From Bifidobacterium breve (lineage in GTDB: Bacteria > Actinomycetota > Thermoleophilia > Miltoncostaeales > Miltoncostaeaceae), in the NCBI GenBank assembly GCA_945861935.1, contig CAMAVU010000008.1, positions 1 through 40,395 of the forward strand: a stretch of DNA of 40,395 bases, read 5' to 3'. Every line of letters begins with the position of its first letter. Positions within the stretch are counted from its first letter, which is position 1. Shown here in pieces: positions 29,654 to 38,205 of the stretch. Under the pieces are notes generated by a model, which was given only the letters and a program-made list of their open reading frames with translations, was not told the origin of the DNA and did not search any database. Position numbers and translations under genes: made by a program.

Positions 29654-30126
29654 GCGTGCGGCCCCGGATACTCGGCCTCGCCCTGGTGGTGTGCGGGGTT
29701 CTGATCGCCACGCTCCCCGCGCTCCCGTGGTACGCGGTCACATTCCCCACGGGGGCCTCGTCGCTCTCCGGCTATGGCGCGGGCGCCGCCGCCTGGCTCC
29801 TTCCCCCGATCGGCGCGTCGCTCGTCGTGACGGGGGTACTCGCCGCATGGTGGGCCGCACCGACCGGCACGCCGCCGGTGCGGGCGCTGGGCGCCGTCGC
29901 CGTGCTGGCCGCAGTGCTCGGCATGGGATGGTCCGCATTTCTGGCGCTCGCACCGCACGTGGAGGTGGTTGCCGTGCGGGCAGGCATGGCCGACTCACCC
30001 GTGGCGGGTGAGTGGTTCATCGGGGTGCTCCCCCCCGCGTGGGCGTGCTTGGCGGCGACCGCCCTTGCCGGCATGGCCGGCATCCTGCTGCTCGTCCCGG
30101 GCACTGGGCCCGCACCGCCGGCCTAA
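29650..30126 (+). CDS. Small four-helix membrane protein, unknown
   Basis: A 158-residue protein with four hydrophobic segments (about 5-25, 45-70, 80-105 and 130-150). Between helices 1 and 2 is PWYAVTFPTGASSLSGYGAGAAAW, loosely like the Trp-operon-associated membrane protein family of Actinomycetota, though that is not certain. The GTG at 29650 overlaps the DUF2079 stop (GTGA). It is the last gene of the plus-strand operon and its TAA overlaps the stop codon of the convergent penicillin-binding protein gene. Confidence 0.65.
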   Translation: MSVRPRILGLALVVCGVLIATLPALPWYAVTFPTGASSLSGYGAGAAAWLLPPIGASLVVTGVLAAWWAAPTGTPPVRALGAVAVLAAVLGMGWSAFLALAPHVEVVAVRAGMADSPVAGEWFIGVLPPAWACLAATALAGMAGILLLVPGTGPAPPA

Positions 30127-32246
30127 GGGGTCGTCGGTGCAGGTGCCGGCGTCGGTGCGGGTGCCGGCGTCGGTGCGGGTGCCGGCGTCGGTGCAGGTGC
30201 CGGGACCACGGTGGTCGGAGCGGGCGCCGGTACGCGCGTTGTGGTGCTGGGCTTGCCCGCGGCCACGGTGCTGATGCTCGTCGCGGTGGTCACCGAGTAC
30301 GTCCCCGCCGATTCAGTGAAGTCCGATGAGAACGGCGACCATGCCACGGGGTCCTTCGGGAGCGGCCAGCCGACCTCGGTGTCCTTCTCTGTTACCACCC
30401 GCATGAAGTCAGCCCAGATCCGCGCGGGGAACGACCCGCCTGACACGGTGATCCCGTGGACGCTGGTCATCGACCGGCGCACGCCGTCGTCGTTCGGGTA
30501 GCCCACCCACACCGCGCACACGTACTTCGGCGTGTACCCGACGAACCACGCATCGGTGTAGTCGTCGGTGGTTCCTGTTTTGCCCGCCACGGCCGGGCCG
30601 ATGTTCGCCGCCGTCCCGGTGCCGCCGGTCACGTTGCTGCGCAGGATGCGTGTGACCTCGTAGGCGACGCCGTCCGGGAATACGCGCGTGCGCTTTGGCG
30701 TGGCGATATCCCCCTTGGGGATGCCCTCTCCCAGATTGGTCACGGAGATGGGCTTCACGCGGAACCCCCCGTTGGCGAGTGGCGCGTACGCGGCAGCCAT
30801 CTCGAGGGGGGTCACCTCGCCTGCGCCGAGGCCGACGGAGGGCACCACGGGGAGGTCGCTCTCCACCCCCATGCGCTGGGCGATCTCGACGACCCGCTCC
30901 GGGCCGACGTCGAGGGTCAGCTGGATGTAAACCGTGTTGTCCGATGCGACCGTCGCCTGTGACACCGAGATGGCCCCGCGGTATTCCTTCGAGTACGTGG
31001 TCACCTCCACCGGCCCCCATCGTGGGTCATCGATGTCGATGGGCCGGCTGTCGTACAGCGTCGAATACGGGTTGATGCCGTCGGCGATCGCCCTGGTGAG
31101 CACGAAGGTCTTGAACGTCGAGCCCGACTGGCGGTGGGCCTGGGCGGCGTAGTTGAACTGGCTGTCCTGCCCGTATTGCGTGCTCGTGGCCATCGCACGG
31201 ATGTAGCCGGTCCGGGCATCGAGCAGCACCAGGGCGACGGCCGGGTCGCCCTCGTACCCCAAGTTGGTCTCGATGGCCTTCTCGGCCGCTCGCTGCAGGC
31301 GCGGGTCGATGGTGGTCCGGACGGCCATGCCACCCTGCTGCACGCGCTCGTCACCGAACTCGGAGATGAGTTCCTGCCGCACGTAGTCGAAGAAATAGCC
31401 CTCGTTCTTACGCTCGTATGTGTGCCCGCGCTTCAGCTGGAGTCCCGACGCCCGTGCCGCGTCGGCCTCCGCCCGGGTGATGTAGCCCTGGTTGGCCATC
31501 TCCTGCAGCACCACGTTGCGACGGGCCCTGGCGTCCTCGGGGTTCACGAAGGGGTTGTAGGCCGACGGCGCCTGCGGCAGCCCCGCCAGCAGTGCAGCCT
31601 GAGCGAGGTTGATTTTCCACACCGGCCGGTCGAAGTAGGTGAGGGCGGCGGCCTGCACGCCGACCGAGTTCTGCCCGTAGAACACGCCGTTCAGGTACTT
31701 CGCGAGGATCTCGTCCTTGGTGAAGTGCCTCTCCACCTCGCGGGCCAGATGGACTTCCTTGATCTTCTGATCGAAGTCGCGAGGGGCGTTCGGGTCGTAG
31801 AGGTTCTTCACGAGTTGCATCGTGATCGTGCTCCCGCCCTGACGCAGGCCGTCGGTGTCCAGGGCGTTGCGCACGGCGGCGCCGACCACGCGTACCCAGT
31901 CCACGCCGTCATGCTCGTAGAACCGCTTGTCCTCGATGGCAACCGTCGCCTCGCGCAGCGACACCGGGATCCGCGCGAGGGGTAGTTCGGTGCGGTTGGT
32001 GACACCTGCGATATACCCCAGCAACTTGCCGTTCCGGTCGTAGATCCGCGTGTTCTGCCCCAGGCCGACGGGCTGCAGGTCCTCGATGTCGGGCAGGTCG
32101 CTGGTGATGGCCTGGTATCGCGTGGACAGTGATACGCCGATGACGGTGGCGATCACCACGAATGCCATGAGGATCACCTTCCCGGCACCAATGCGCCCGT
32201 GCCGCGCCCGTCCCTCGCGCCGCCGCCGCAGGCGGCGGATTCTCAT
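30123..32246 (-). CDS. Class A penicillin-binding protein (PBP1A family)
   Basis: A 707-residue bifunctional peptidoglycan synthase. TM helix at 23-40; GT51 glycosyltransferase domain with catalytic Glu105 in EDKRFYEHDGVD, then GGSTITMQLVKN and KYLNGVFYGQNSVGVQAA. The transpeptidase domain has SGSTFK (Ser376/Lys379), SDN (435-437) and KTGTT (556-558). It polymerises lipid II and cross-links stems outside the membrane. The last 35 residues are a PAPAPTPAPAPTP tail. The ATG overlaps the upstream small membrane protein stop (ATGA). Its presence beside the glycolipid operon is consistent with an envelope locus. The motif set is complete, so it should be active. Confidence 0.95.
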   Translation of the reverse strand: MRIRRLRRRREGRARHGRIGAGKVILMAFVVIATVIGVSLSTRYQAITSDLPDIEDLQPVGLGQNTRIYDRNGKLLGYIAGVTNRTELPLARIPVSLREATVAIEDKRFYEHDGVDWVRVVGAAVRNALDTDGLRQGGSTITMQLVKNLYDPNAPRDFDQKIKEVHLAREVERHFTKDEILAKYLNGVFYGQNSVGVQAAALTYFDRPVWKINLAQAALLAGLPQAPSAYNPFVNPEDARARRNVVLQEMANQGYITRAEADAARASGLQLKRGHTYERKNEGYFFDYVRQELISEFGDERVQQGGMAVRTTIDPRLQRAAEKAIETNLGYEGDPAVALVLLDARTGYIRAMATSTQYGQDSQFNYAAQAHRQSGSTFKTFVLTRAIADGINPYSTLYDSRPIDIDDPRWGPVEVTTYSKEYRGAISVSQATVASDNTVYIQLTLDVGPERVVEIAQRMGVESDLPVVPSVGLGAGEVTPLEMAAAYAPLANGGFRVKPISVTNLGEGIPKGDIATPKRTRVFPDGVAYEVTRILRSNVTGGTGTAANIGPAVAGKTGTTDDYTDAWFVGYTPKYVCAVWVGYPNDDGVRRSMTSVHGITVSGGSFPARIWADFMRVVTEKDTEVGWPLPKDPVAWSPFSSDFTESAGTYSVTTATSISTVAAGKPSTTTRVPAPAPTTVVPAPAPTPAPAPTPAPAPTPAPAPTTP
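30136..30207. repeat. Four 18-bp tandem units coding the PAPAPT tail of the penicillin-binding protein
   Basis: Units of the form ggtgcgggtgccggcgtc run at 30136, 30154, 30172 and 30190; copies 2 and 3 are identical, copy 1 differs at one base and copy 4 at a few bases. Each codes six residues of the Pro/Ala/Thr tail in frame. Confidence 0.85.
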
Positions 32247-33752: not shown

Positions 33753-34175
33753 GCGATCCCGCCACTCGTGGCGGTGGCGGCGTACGCCGGTGCGTTTGTC
33801 GGCCTCCTCACTCCCAACATCACGCCGGGGTGGTGGCGGGTGGCAGGGGCAGGTGCCGTGGCAGGTGCCCTGTGGATGCTCATCGGGCCGGCGGTGTTCG
33901 ACGGGGTGGGTGGCCGGGTGGGGGTCGTCGCCTTCATGGGGTCGGCGGTCATGTACCGGGTGGCGGATCTGGCGGGAGCCGGTACAGCGCGCTCCTCGTG
34001 CCGTCCGTGGACGGGATGGCGCACATCGCCGTCGTGCCCATCGGGGCGGCAGCAGCCGTGACCACCTGGACGCTGATGCGGCGTGCGGGCGGGGGGATGT
34101 ACCCGACCTCGGGGTTGCCGGCGCCCGTGGTGTGTGGTGGCATCGCGATGGCGGCGCTGCGTAGCGGTGGTGTGG
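33753..34175 (+). pseudogene. Remnant of a polytopic membrane protein (in-frame stop plus frameshift)
   Basis: Directly after the TAG at 33750 the same frame reads PPLVAVAAYAGAFVGLLTPN, then WRVAGAGAVAGALWMLIGP and VGVVAFMGSAVMYRVADLAGAG, all hydrophobic and Gly/Ala-rich. At about 33965-34000 the sensible reading passes to the third frame: YSALLVPSVDGMAHIAVVPI, GAAAAVTTWTLMRR and YPTSGLPAPVVCGG. Together with the 83-residue part this would make a membrane protein of about 220 residues. The end is unclear because it runs to the convergent CsoR-family gene. A sequencing error could explain one lesion, less easily both. Confidence 0.55.
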
Positions 34176-34460
34176 CTAGCGGGACAGCCGGGTGTGCCGC
34201 AGCAGGGTCGCCAGCCCCTCCTCGAGCCCGGCGGCGCACAACGTGCCATCGGTCTGCTGGCACTGGCGCAGCCGCTCGCCGATGAGGTGCAGCCCCACCT
34301 GATCGACGGCTGCGGTGACGGCGGCCAGTTGCACGAGGACATCGTCGCAGGATGCGCCCTCGTCCAGCATGCGCTGGACGCCGCGCAGTTGCCCCTCGGC
34401 GCGGCGCAGGCGCTTCTGGATCTGATCGCGGGTGGGCGGCCCGGAGGCCGTCGTGGCCAT
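34176..34460 (-). CDS. CsoR/RcnR-family (DUF156) transcriptional repressor lacking the copper-site His
   Basis: A 94-residue all-helical regulator. The DNA-binding face RDQIQKRLRRAEGQLRGVQRML is followed by Cys38 in SCDDVLVQLAAVTAA and Cys67 in RLRQC, 29 residues apart as in copper CsoR (Cys36/Cys65 in the M. tuberculosis protein). The copper ligand His61 aligns with Arg63, while a His lies five residues earlier (His58). Two Cys without the His is the pattern of persulfide-sensing CstR-type proteins. It is the last gene of the trxB-trxA-zinc-ribbon operon, 4 nt after the previous stop. The ATG at 34460 is preferred to the longer open frame, which is Pro/Ala-rich shadow. Confidence 0.85.
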   Translation of the reverse strand: MATTASGPPTRDQIQKRLRRAEGQLRGVQRMLDEGASCDDVLVQLAAVTAAVDQVGLHLIGERLRQCQQTDGTLCAAGLEEGLATLLRHTRLSR

Positions 34461-34464
34461 GGTC

Positions 34465-34713
34465 CTAGTGCCCCCCGCAGCCACAGCCGCCGTGGTGGTG
34501 GCCGGAGACGGGGGGGGAGGCACTCGCGACGGCTCCCGCGGCGTGGCCACGTGAGGTCTGGCTGCTCGACCGGCAGGTGACGAAGCCGGTGATCATCTGC
34601 TCGGCAGGGGCGCCGCACGACGGGCACACCCGGTCCTCATCGCGCAGGAACCCCTGGCGGAACACCTCAAACGCGTTGGTGCATCCCGTGCACCGCAGGT
34701 CGTAGGTCGGCAT
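34465..34713 (-). CDS. FmdB-type zinc-ribbon protein with a His/Gly/Cys-rich tail
   Basis: An 82-residue protein. MPTYDLRCTGCTNAFEVF and CPSCGAPAEQMI form the two CxxC knuckles of the FmdB/CxxC_CxxC_SSSS zinc ribbon. The family usually ends in a Ser/Gly-rich tail; here it ends GHHHGGCGCGGH, a strong potential metal- or thiol-reactive site. It lies between trxA (4-nt gap) and the CsoR-family gene (4-nt gap), so a role in redox or metal/sulfur handling is plausible. Function of the family is uncertain. Confidence 0.82.
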   Translation of the reverse strand: MPTYDLRCTGCTNAFEVFRQGFLRDEDRVCPSCGAPAEQMITGFVTCRSSSQTSRGHAAGAVASASPPVSGHHHGGCGCGGH

Positions 34714-34717
34714 GCGC

Positions 34718-35035
34718 TCAGGCGAGCCCGAGGGCCTGTTCGATGCCGGCCCGCGGCATGGCGCCGACCGCGTGCTTCACCAGTTGCCCGCCCTCGAACA
34801 GCCCGATGAACGGGATGCCCTGGATGCCGTAGGCCTGTGCGATGTCGGGGGCCTCGTCAACGTTCACCTTCGCCACGACGATGTCATCGCGGTCGTTCGC
34901 GATCTCCTCGATGACGGGGCCGATCATGCGGCATGGGCCGCACCACGGTGCCCAGAAGTCCACGAGCACCGGCTGCTCGCTTTCGAGCACGAGGCCCTGG
35001 AAGGTGTCGCTGGTGATCTCGATGACGTCGCCCAT
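34718..35035 (-). CDS. trxA: Thioredoxin
   Basis: A 105-residue thioredoxin with the active site WCGPC (Cys32/Cys35) in LVDFWAPWCGPCRMIGP, the buried-Asp region VAKVNVDEAPDIAQAYGI and the cis-Pro in GIQGIPFIGLFEGGQLV. It reduces cytoplasmic disulfides and is recycled by the reductase encoded 12 nt upstream. A GGGGAG ribosome-binding site lies 5 nt before the ATG. Confidence 0.96.
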   Translation of the reverse strand: MGDVIEITSDTFQGLVLESEQPVLVDFWAPWCGPCRMIGPVIEEIANDRDDIVVAKVNVDEAPDIAQAYGIQGIPFIGLFEGGQLVKHAVGAMPRAGIEQALGLA

Positions 35036-35047
35036 CAGGTCTCCCCG

Positions 35048-36016
35048 TCAGTCGGCGGACGCGCCTGCGCCCGCGTGGTCGGCGGCCGGGGCCGGGTTGG
35101 CCTCAAGCCATCTCTCGGCATCAATCGCCGCCATGCAGCCGGTGCCCGCGGCGGTCACGGCCTGCCGGTAGGTGGTGTCCTGCACGTCGCCGCACGCGAA
35201 CACCCCGTCAATGCTGGTGACGGTGCTCCCCGGCTGGGTGAGCACGTAGCCCTCGGAGTCCATGTCGAGGATGTCCGTGAACAGCGATGTGCTGGGCTGG
35301 TGCCCGATTGCCACGAACATCGCCGCGGCGGGGATCACGTCCTCCGTGCCGGTGTCTGCGTCCTTCACGCGCACCCCGGTGACCACCTGGTCCCCCTCGA
35401 CGTCCTCGACGACCGAGCCCCACCGAACGGTGATCCTGGGATGGTCGAGGGCACGCGCGGCCATGATTGCGGATGCCCGGAACTCGTGGCGCCGATGCAC
35501 GATGGTGACGCTCTCGCACATGCGCGTGAGGAACAGGGCCTCTTCCATCGCGGTGTCGCCGCCACCCACCACGACCACCGGCTTGTCCTTGAAGAAGAAG
35601 CCGTCACAGGTGGCGCAGGCGCTGACGCCCCTCCCCATCAGGCGCTGCTCGCCCTCGATCCCGAGCCACTTCGCCGACGCGCCCGTGGACACGATGATGG
35701 CGTTGCCTTCGTGCTCGGCGTCTCCGACCCACACGCGGAACGGGCGCCGGGACAGGTCAATGCGGGTCACATCGGCGGTGATGAAGCGGGTGCCGAAGCG
35801 CTCGGCCTGGGCGCGGAACAGCTGCATCATCTCCGGGCCCTCGATTCCGTCCGGGAAGCCCGGGTAGTTCTCGACGTCCGTGGTGATCATCAACTGGCCG
35901 CCGGCGCCGTAGCCCTCGATCACGAGCGGCTCCAGTCCCGCGCGCGCGGCATAGATGGCGGCCGTCAGACCCGCCGGTCCGCTGCCGATGATGATCACCT
36001 CGTTGACGTCCGCCAC
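35048..36016 (-). CDS. trxB: Thioredoxin reductase
   Basis: A 322-residue FAD/NADPH flavoprotein. FAD-binding VIIIGSGPAGLTAAIYAARAG at the N-terminus, the redox pair CATC (about residues 134-137) in GVSACATCDGFFF, NADPH-binding VVVGGGDTAMEEALFL, and the C-terminal FAD motif GVFACGDVQDTTYRQAVTAAGTG. It transfers electrons from NADPH to thioredoxin. The GTG at 36016 has the ribosome-binding site GGAGGGGGG about 5 nt upstream and is preferred to the TTG one codon earlier. The start region overlaps a palindrome resembling CsoR-family operators. Confidence 0.95.
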   Translation of the reverse strand: MADVNEVIIIGSGPAGLTAAIYAARAGLEPLVIEGYGAGGQLMITTDVENYPGFPDGIEGPEMMQLFRAQAERFGTRFITADVTRIDLSRRPFRVWVGDAEHEGNAIIVSTGASAKWLGIEGEQRLMGRGVSACATCDGFFFKDKPVVVVGGGDTAMEEALFLTRMCESVTIVHRRHEFRASAIMAARALDHPRITVRWGSVVEDVEGDQVVTGVRVKDADTGTEDVIPAAAMFVAIGHQPSTSLFTDILDMDSEGYVLTQPGSTVTSIDGVFACGDVQDTTYRQAVTAAGTGCMAAIDAERWLEANPAPAADHAGAGASAD

Positions 36017-36018
36017 CA

Positions 36019-36035
36019 ATACCCCCCTCCGGTAT
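36019..36035 (-). promoter_or_regulatory. Putative CsoR-family operator overlapping the trxB ribosome-binding site
   Basis: The coding strand reads ATACCGGAGGGGGGTAT, perfect 5-bp arms ATACC/GGTAT with a 7-bp spacer. From memory this is the arm and spacing form of CsoR-family operators (for example that of B. subtilis copZA). The outer pair TACCC (36020-36024) and GGGTA (36038-36042) gives a second, overlapping palindrome. A TACGCT box (36049-36044) would place the start site at about 36035, inside the operator. The operon's last gene encodes a CsoR-family repressor, so autoregulation is likely. Confidence 0.6.
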
Positions 36036-36049
36036 ATGGGTACAGCGTA

Positions 36050-36646
36050 TCAGGAACGCGGGATGGTGAAGACGAGCCTGTTGCCCGCGCCCCACGGACG
36101 CCGTCCGGCAGCCCAGTACACACGATCCTCGTCCTGCTGGGCGCGCTGGATACGGCGGCCGTCCTCCAGAGTCACGAGGCCCCATGCGAGCAGTACGCCG
36201 ATGACCACGCCCTCTGCCGTGCCGCCGCGCCCGAGCACGGCGACCAGGAAGATCAGCGTGGCGAAGGCCGAGACGAACAGCAGGACGCCGCTGAGGGCCG
36301 CGAACCGGCGCCAGTCGGCCGGAGCGGCGGCGAGCACGCGCGGTCCCTCCGCCGGCTGGGCATCGGGCAGCCGGATGGACGGGAGGCCGCCCTTGCGCAG
36401 CCATGAGCGGAGCAGGGGGAAGAAAATGAGTCCCGTGATGCCCGTGATGGCGCTGAGCACGCCGAGCCACGTCCACGACCAGCCGTCCTCCGAGGTTGCC
36501 TCGAGGATGCCCGAGACGACACCGAGCAGCAGCGCCACCACGATGATCTCGATCGCGTAGAGGCGCGCGAGGCGCGCGTAGTCCCACAGCAGGTCGCGTG
36601 CGCCGATGCGGATGGACACGGGCTTCTGACGTCGCTCTCTCGCCAC
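36050..36646 (-). CDS. Four-helix membrane protein, unknown
   Basis: A 198-residue protein with helices at about 27-48, 58-80, 112-134 and 138-155, a basic N-terminus (ARERRQKPVS) and a hydrophilic C-terminus (RRIQRAQQDEDRVYWAAGRRPWG). No family motif is recognised. It lies 33 nt upstream of trxB on the same strand and divergent from the MFS gene. GTG at 36646 is chosen because TAGCCT lies 8 nt upstream. Confidence 0.65.
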   Translation of the reverse strand: MARERRQKPVSIRIGARDLLWDYARLARLYAIEIIVVALLLGVVSGILEATSEDGWSWTWLGVLSAITGITGLIFFPLLRSWLRKGGLPSIRLPDAQPAEGPRVLAAAPADWRRFAALSGVLLFVSAFATLIFLVAVLGRGGTAEGVVIGVLLAWGLVTLEDGRRIQRAQQDEDRVYWAAGRRPWGAGNRLVFTIPRS

Positions 36647-36660
36647 GGCGGCGAAGGCTA
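36647..36660 (-). promoter_or_regulatory. Candidate -10 for leaderless transcription of the membrane-protein gene
   Basis: TAGCCT (36660-36655 on the minus strand) is followed by 8 nt and GTG at 36646; no Shine-Dalgarno sequence. It is back-to-back with the promoter-like box of the divergent MFS gene about 22 bp away. Confidence 0.45.
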
Positions 36661-36681
36661 GTCCGCGTTCGGCTCCGGGGG

Positions 36682-36696
36682 TATACGGTGGAGCGC
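36682..36696 (+). promoter_or_regulatory. Candidate -10 for the MFS/rlmN operon
   Basis: TATACG (36682-36687; or TACGGT at 36684-36689) lies 9 (or 7) nt before the GTG at 36697. The box sits within the palindrome GTATAC. No Shine-Dalgarno sequence at usable spacing precedes this GTG. Confidence 0.45.
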
Positions 36697-38205
36697 GTGC
36701 AGGAACCCATGCTTCCCGCGCGCCTGCGTGCGGTCCGCGCCCGCCTGAGGGCGAGCCCGCGCTGGCGGTGGATGGCCATGACCGTGGTGGCCGGGGGCAT
36801 GATGCTGTCGGTGCTGAACATCAGCATCGTCAACATCGCCCTGCCCGATATCTCGAGCGACTTCGACGTGGGCGTGTCCGCGGCGGGATGGGTGGTGACG
36901 GGGTTCCTCGTCACCCAGGCGGTGCTGCTCCCCATCGCGGGGCGGGCAGGCGACCTGTACGGCCGCCGCCGGATATTCGTGCTCGGCGTGCTCGTGATGG
37001 TCGTGGCGTCGGCCCTGTGCGCGCTGGCGTGGAACGAACCCTCGCTCGTGGTGTTCCGCATCCTTCAGGGCGTGGGTGCCTCAGCGATGGCCCCCACCGC
37101 GTATGCGTACGCCGCCATCCTCTTCCCGCCCGGCGAGCGCGGCCGGGCGATCGGCATCCTGACGGCCATCATCACGGTGGCGCCGGTGGTGTCGCTCAAT
37201 CTCGCCGGCCTGCTGGTGGGGGTATGGGGATGGCGGAGCGTCTTCTGGTTCACGCCCGTCGTCGGTGGTCTGGTCCTGGTGGGCGCCGCGCTGGTGATGC
37301 ATCGCCGTCCGCCGGGTCCGAAGCGACCGTTCGATCTGGCAGGCGCGGCGCTGGCTGCACTCGGTCTGTTCCCGATCCTCACTGCGCTGGCAGGCGCGGC
37401 GAGTTGGGGCTGGGCATCGCCGCGCGTCCTGCTCCTGCTTGCCCTGGGCGGGGTCGGCCTCGCCCTGTTCGTGTGGCGCGAGTCGCACGCGGCCGACCCC
37501 ATGATCGACCTCGGCCTGCTGCGCTTGAGGACGGTCCGCAACCCCAACCTGACCGGGTTCTGCGTGGGGGCTGCGATGTTCGGGACCCTGCTGCTGCTGC
37601 CCTTCTACTTCACTTCGGTGCTGGGGTACAGCGACGTGCTGCTGTCGCTCGCCATCACCCCCATCGCGCTCTGCTTCATGGTCGGATCGCCGATGTCGGG
37701 GCGCTTGCTCAACCGTGCCGGGAGCGACCGGATGCTGCGGATCGCGCTGGTCACGGCAATCATCGGGGCGGTGGTGCTGGCATGGGGCTTCACGTCTGAG
37801 GCGTACCCCCTGGTACTCCCCGGCATGGTCGTGCTCGCCCTCGGTCTGGCCATGTCCACAGCGCCGGTGACCACCACCGTCATCCACGAGGTGCCCGAGG
37901 ACCGGCTCGGGGTGGCGTCGTCCCTGCCCAACGTGTCGCGCTACGCGGGCGGGGCGCTTGGCGGGGCGCTGCTCAGCACCGTGGTGGCGATGTCCATCCC
38001 TGCCACCGTCACCGCCCAGGATGGCCTGGTGTCGGCGTCGCTGCGTGCCGAGGTGGCGGGCGGAATGCGTACGGCCCTCCTGGTGGCCGCCGGGATCCTC
38101 GTTCTCGGGGCGATCGCGGCGTTCCGTGTGCCACGGGTGCTCGGGCCGGGGGCGACGATCGCAGCACGCGTGACCGGGACTGCGGCGACGCGTGGCGGCC
38201 GGTGA
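36697..38205 (+). CDS. MFS transporter, DHA2-like (14 TM) drug/proton antiporter type
   Basis: A 502-residue protein with about 14 helices. After helix 1 (MAMTVVAGGMMLSVLNISIVNIALPDIS) comes the DHA2 motif AAGWVVTGFLVTQAVLLPIAGRAGDLYGRRRIFVLG (motif A, between helices 2 and 3), then FRILQGVGASAMAPTAYAYAA (motif B-like Arg) and GRAIGILTAIITVAPVVSLNLAGLL (motif C-like). It likely exports small hydrophobic or drug-like compounds with proton exchange. The frame is open back to 36598; GTG 36697 is chosen from the -10-like box, with ATG 36709 as alternative. It ends GTGA with the next transporter. Confidence 0.87.
   Translation: MQEPMLPARLRAVRARLRASPRWRWMAMTVVAGGMMLSVLNISIVNIALPDISSDFDVGVSAAGWVVTGFLVTQAVLLPIAGRAGDLYGRRRIFVLGVLVMVVASALCALAWNEPSLVVFRILQGVGASAMAPTAYAYAAILFPPGERGRAIGILTAIITVAPVVSLNLAGLLVGVWGWRSVFWFTPVVGGLVLVGAALVMHRRPPGPKRPFDLAGAALAALGLFPILTALAGAASWGWASPRVLLLLALGGVGLALFVWRESHAADPMIDLGLLRLRTVRNPNLTGFCVGAAMFGTLLLLPFYFTSVLGYSDVLLSLAITPIALCFMVGSPMSGRLLNRAGSDRMLRIALVTAIIGAVVLAWGFTSEAYPLVLPGMVVLALGLAMSTAPVTTTVIHEVPEDRLGVASSLPNVSRYAGGALGGALLSTVVAMSIPATVTAQDGLVSASLRAEVAGGMRTALLVAAGILVLGAIAAFRVPRVLGPGATIAARVTGTAATRGGR

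Follow-up and report, generated by a model that had tools for sequence, protein, structure and literature searches.

A predicted CsoR-type operator at the promoter of a thioredoxin operon that ends in its own CsoR-family repressor gene in Miltoncostaeaceae

The best-matching described repressors for the locus reported here belong to the CsoR family. In the accessible passages of the report on ScCsoR (SCO0620) of Streptomyces coelicolor, this protein represses itself and sulfane-sulfur genes, has a proven site (ATACC-n6-GGTAT) at -9 and -48, carries the pair Cys37/Cys66, and sheds DNA on persulfidation of Cys37 (PMC7533328); the targets named there are a persulfide dioxygenase, a rhodanese and a sulfite transporter, not thioredoxin, and no third cysteine is reported in those passages. 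CstR of Staphylococcus aureus and Streptococcus pneumoniae (PDB 7mq1) has a C-x-C thiol pair, lacks the copper His and regulates its own cst operon, whose targets serve sulfide detoxification. For the copper-responsive CsoR of Streptomyces lividans (PDB 4adz), an RLXR motif and a Gln (Q81) are the reported DNA-binding residues, and the operator rule is TAC-X9-GTA with a G-tract (PMC3902906). Sulfane sulfur is a substrate of thioredoxin systems and also induces them, through OxyR in Escherichia coli and AdpA in Streptomyces. OxyR-trxC, AdpA-trx and RexT-trx of Nostoc resemble the present case in that thioredoxin expression rises in response to sulfane sulfur or peroxide, but OxyR, AdpA and RexT are LysR-, AraC- and ArsR-family proteins, respectively, unrelated to CsoR in both protein and site. 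The earlier note on this DNA had held that CsoR-controlled thioredoxin operons are not widely described, and no trxB case was found in the literature searched (openly accessible titles, abstracts and passages, which is not proof of absence). Repressor family, operator and sensing chemistry are all of known kinds, and control of a thioredoxin operon by a CsoR-type repressor is absent from the literature searched.

The window, the whole stretch of 40,395 nucleotides that was analysed, comes from a little-known freshwater actinobacterium of the Miltoncostaeaceae (Thermoleophilia, Actinomycetota). On its minus strand lie, in order, a conserved upstream gene without a Pfam or NCBIfam match (36050-36646), trxB, trxA, fmdB and csoR, with gaps of 12, 4 and 4 nt among the last four. 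The thioredoxin reductase gene trxB (35048-36016; TIGR01292, 398 bits) is single-copy, with one strong match in the genome, and the thioredoxin gene trxA (34718-35035; TIGR01068, 113 bits) is the only one above the NCBI cut-off, two other thioredoxins being weaker. They are followed by a gene for an FmdB-family zinc-ribbon protein (34465-34713; PF09723, TIGR02605) and, closing the operon as the earlier note had proposed, by the gene for a CsoR-family repressor of 94 aa (34460-34176), of which family the genome holds no other member. The trxB-trxA-fmdB-csoR operon holds no sulfide-oxidation gene and no gene for a persulfide dioxygenase (PDO), SQR or rhodanese; its linked genes trxB-trxA encode a system able to reduce sulfane sulfur. 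Downstream of csoR, the window holds a PBP1A-like gene (30123-32246), and a PBP1A-like gene also follows csoR in another family of the class (f6; L202, L204), which hints at an old neighbourhood common to both.

The sequence ATACCCCCCTCCGGTAT at 36019-36035 (plus strand) reads ATACC-GGAGGGG-GGTAT on the coding strand, exactly the ATACC-N7-GGTAT palindrome that had been described. It is the single match in the window even with up to one mismatch allowed (shuffles give 0.14), and the exact form occurs once in the genome, at trxB, against an expectation from base composition of 0.24 per 1.6 Mb or 1.8e-5 per 120-nt upstream window; a reversed control pattern had no match genome-wide. Inverted TAC and GTA flank a G-tract of at least four in a TAC-X9-GTA arrangement that overlaps the promoter, the form of a CsoR-type operator. 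The overlapping outer arms, TACCC (36020-36024) and GGGTA (36038-36042), exist as claimed but are probably incidental, because they lie within an 8-nt spacer of variable sequence and relatives do not conserve them; they were rejected as part of the operator for lack of that conservation.

The TACGCT proposed as a -10 candidate is present at 36049-36044 and forms part of an extended -10, TGATACGCT (TGN-TACGCT; 36052-36044), which precedes the operator by 8 nt. Its TGN coincides with the TGA that terminates the upstream gene. Scanning 33800-36800 for sigma-70 promoters and terminators gave no hit; the scan requires a -35, and the promoter here is of the extended -10 type. The Shine-Dalgarno sequence of trxB, GGAGG (36026-36030), lies inside the operator G-tract, and GTG (36016-36014) is more likely than TTG (36019-36017) to be the start codon, given its spacing from GGAGG and its retention in relatives. 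The upstream gene and an MFS efflux gene are separated by a divergent region, in which GGGGGTATACGG was seen at 36675-36690; GTATACCCC is kept at the corresponding place in six of eight relatives examined, and one (L079) has the near-palindrome ATACCCCCCGGGGGGTT. This element could be another CsoR-type site, weaker than the first, or merely a -10.

Conservation of the palindrome in relatives with the same operon had been set beforehand as the test on which the proposal could fail, and the site was found upstream of trxB in all 20 genomes sampled from the genus, with both arms exact in 15 and a left arm of ATACG in five; these genomes are mutually related, so the counts are not independent observations. 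The strict pattern occurred once per genome in nearly all matching genus genomes (reversed control, 0), and each genome has one CsoR-family gene. The extended -10 TGNTANNNT is invariant in the genus and lies 8 nt (14 genomes, by script) or 9 nt (six genomes, read off upstream sequences such as TGTTAGACT, TGCTAGGGT and TGATAGGGT) upstream of the operator. When 13 sequences were aligned on the operator, the upstream DNA was variable except for TGNTANNNT exactly 8 nt away. In most species of the genus, 2 nt separate the operator from the start codon, and its G-tract doubles as the Shine-Dalgarno sequence, which lies inside the palindrome in 15/20 genomes. In the other five, the start codon is 34-44 nt away and a separate Shine-Dalgarno sequence follows the operator, which argues that the operator is kept for its own sake and is no mere side effect of the ribosome-binding site.

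Nearly all genomes of other Miltoncostaeaceae genera keep the trxB-trxA-fmdB-csoR operon, and at trxB they carry a textbook CsoR site, ATACCCC-n3/4-GGGTAT, which shares bases with TGCTAGGAT-type -10s; in the example TGCTAGGATACCCCCATGGGTAT, one AT both ends the -10 and opens the operator. This classic form was present in 17/17 genomes in which the region upstream of trxB could be read and the operon includes csoR, a count that leaves out G035 (contig end) and G036 (site present, contig ending before csoR). A strict pattern search placed the site once in most of the other-genus genomes; the reversed control had no match. One genome (G032) has neither a CsoR-family gene nor an operator, with no near-site within 500 nt. 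Relative to these genera, the operator of the window genus lies about 10 bp, or one helical turn, further downstream, which we infer to be a phase shift. In another genome (G037; L184), the trxB start lies 192 nt downstream of the operator with its -10, and C38 and C75 (window numbering) are both missing from the repressor; this may be a case of changed regulation.

The window repressor scores 75.8 bits against PF02583 (DUF156, CsoR/RcnR; curated cut-off 22.8). An AlphaFold2 model (mean pLDDT 84) has helices at 11-33, 38-69 and 75-89, and the top 20 Foldseek hits to it were all CsoR, InrS, CstR or FrmR proteins (probability 1.00; the best E-value, 0.0012, is weak). The S. lividans protein is among the nearest solved relatives (43% identity in the Foldseek alignment). 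R17, L18 and R20 of the RLXR motif in helix 1, together with Q44, are invariant in 33 aligned sequences and match S. lividans CsoR, and the operator follows the same TAC-X9-GTA rule; the window protein differs in having Cys38-Arg63-Cys67 in place of the copper Cys-His-Cys fingerprint and in lacking linked copper genes. C38 and C67 correspond to the cysteine pair of sulfane-sulfur sensors without the copper His (C31/C60, C37/C66). The third cysteine, C75, is kept in all aligned family members but one. Four members that retain the operon (G026, G035, G037, G038) lack C38, so the sensing chemistry is not identical throughout the family. The repressor is most like the sulfane-sulfur sensors, of which Streptomyces ScCsoR is one. 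With ScCsoR it shares an actinobacterial origin, two conserved cysteines, an operator near the transcription start and autoregulation, binding, start position and autoregulation being predictions for the window protein; with CstR it shares the fold, the paired thiols without the copper His and the (predicted) autoregulated operon. It differs from both in its thioredoxin targets, and from CstR also in its extra cysteine.

The palindrome is thus probably the operator of the operon's own CsoR protein, which would exert autoregulated, thiol- or persulfide-responsive repression on the thioredoxin system. The site, the promoter geometry, the linkage and the co-loss of site and gene are supported by the comparisons above; binding, the transcription start, the effector and the chemistry of release are what we infer. 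In the unstressed cell, reduced repressor would occupy the operator, placed at roughly +1 to +17 of the trxB transcript and shortly after the extended -10, and would keep every gene of the operon, csoR included, from being transcribed. Sulfane sulfur (persulfide or polysulfide), or possibly another thiol oxidant, would modify C38/C67 and perhaps C75, causing the repressor to leave the DNA. TrxB and TrxA would then be made and would reduce the persulfides or disulfides, and fresh repressor would re-bind the operator to close a negative feedback loop. As the signal, sulfane sulfur is somewhat favoured and is the likeliest candidate, with general disulfide stress next and a metal least likely.

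A tentative alternative for the signal is disulfide or oxidant stress in general, read through the redox state of thioredoxin, with disulfides in the repressor reduced by thioredoxin. It suits a regulated system that is itself a general disulfide reductant, and it has a precedent in the CsoR-like TTHA1953 of Thermus thermophilus, which loses DNA affinity on disulfide linkage and shows no response to NaHS. C67 and C75 are near in the chain, placed by the model at the end of helix 2 and the start of helix 3, and this pair is retained in three of the four members without C38. Most members, however, keep the C38/C67 pair typical of sulfane-sulfur sensors, and the operator nearly equals the site of the proven sulfane-sulfur sensor ScCsoR. 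The persulfide or thiol option is much better supported by the sequences than a metal option, because the copper fingerprint is absent. On a metal reading, copper or another metal bound by Cys/His would be sensed and the operon would be a metal-stress unit. Most characterised CsoR relatives do sense Cu(I), Ni or Co, the PDB neighbours include CsoR and InrS, heavy-metal P-type ATPases are present in the genus, and C75 with H58 could make a non-standard site. This reading is nevertheless improbable: the copper His is Arg in the window protein, the operon holds no metal transporter or chaperone gene, and the strict palindrome is absent at the heavy-metal P-type ATPases of the genus. A copper sensor proper was rejected on the missing Cys-His-Cys fingerprint.

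The other two alternatives concern the palindrome itself. It would be an RNA hairpin around the Shine-Dalgarno sequence, or a by-product of that sequence, if control were exerted on translation, as its enclosing the Shine-Dalgarno sequence in most genus genomes could suggest. This is very improbable, since in five genomes the palindrome stands well upstream of another Shine-Dalgarno sequence, the palindromes of other genera overlap the -10 and hence are only partly transcribed, and the stability of the RNA is not unusual (z = 0.44). Moreover, the arms are nearly fixed across the genus, and the sole arm change (ATACG, five genomes) is one-sided and breaks a pair. The hairpin or Shine-Dalgarno artefact was ruled out on the separate Shine-Dalgarno sequence in five species and the fold z-score. 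It is likewise hardly probable that the site serves some other regulator while the linked CsoR acts elsewhere: the site is the consensus of CsoR-family sites, genomes of the genus have one CsoR gene each, G032 lacks both site and gene, and the same motif precedes csoR itself in other lineages.

Pairing of csoR with thioredoxin genes, with operators, was found again in no fewer than three further lineages of Actinomycetota and in a single genome of Lactobacillales, the gene order differing among them. In four genomes of three genera of a Thermoleophilia family (f4), csoR directly precedes trxB, with TACCC-GGGTA or TACCCCCTCCGGTA upstream of csoR. Two genomes (families f68 and f69) have the order csoR, PIN/TPR protein, trxB, trxA, DUF3842; the site at csoR is TACCCTCAAGGGTA, of the TACCC-GGGTA type, in one (G421), and only the weaker TACCCAATGAGGTA in the other (G431). 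In three genomes of family f51, csoR faces trxA-fmdB and both transcription units have their own site, one of them beside TATAAT. In Secundilactobacillus, a thioredoxin gene precedes the csoR gene, with TACCCTAGGTGGGTATAAT in front. Two CsoR-like sites were seen in a Lactobacillus relative (L139:3480-3600), one before trx-csoR and the other, ATACCCCACGCAGGTAT, before an oppositely directed gene. Some f4, f6 and f2 genomes with the same repressor type had no trxB match in the approximately 2 kb fetched on either side, so thioredoxin is a frequent but not a universal partner. A reading frame on L251, suspected of encoding a DUF302 protein, had no Pfam match with the coordinates used. One f4 genome (G112; L199) encodes a 204-aa protein with two CsoR-like domains in tandem. 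It is conceivable, though doubtful, that these repressors form a widespread CsoR-family class dedicated to thioredoxin, paired with trxB/trxA in several independent arrangements across Actinomycetota and some lactobacilli, which may sense through a shifted C67/C75 pair reset by thioredoxin and whose operator G-tract, in the window genus, also serves as the trxB Shine-Dalgarno sequence.

The control of thioredoxin levels in bacteria is little understood outside the OxyR, SigR and Spx models, and the established roles of the CsoR family lie in copper and sulfide detoxification rather than in thioredoxin control. The window locus offers an operator, a repressor and a promoter that can be tested, and it cautions against labelling such csoR genes copper repressors. 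Placing the sole thioredoxin reductase under a CsoR-family switch, as predicted here for a whole actinobacterial family and again in other lineages, would tie the sensing of sulfane sulfur or thiols directly to the general reducing system of the cell.
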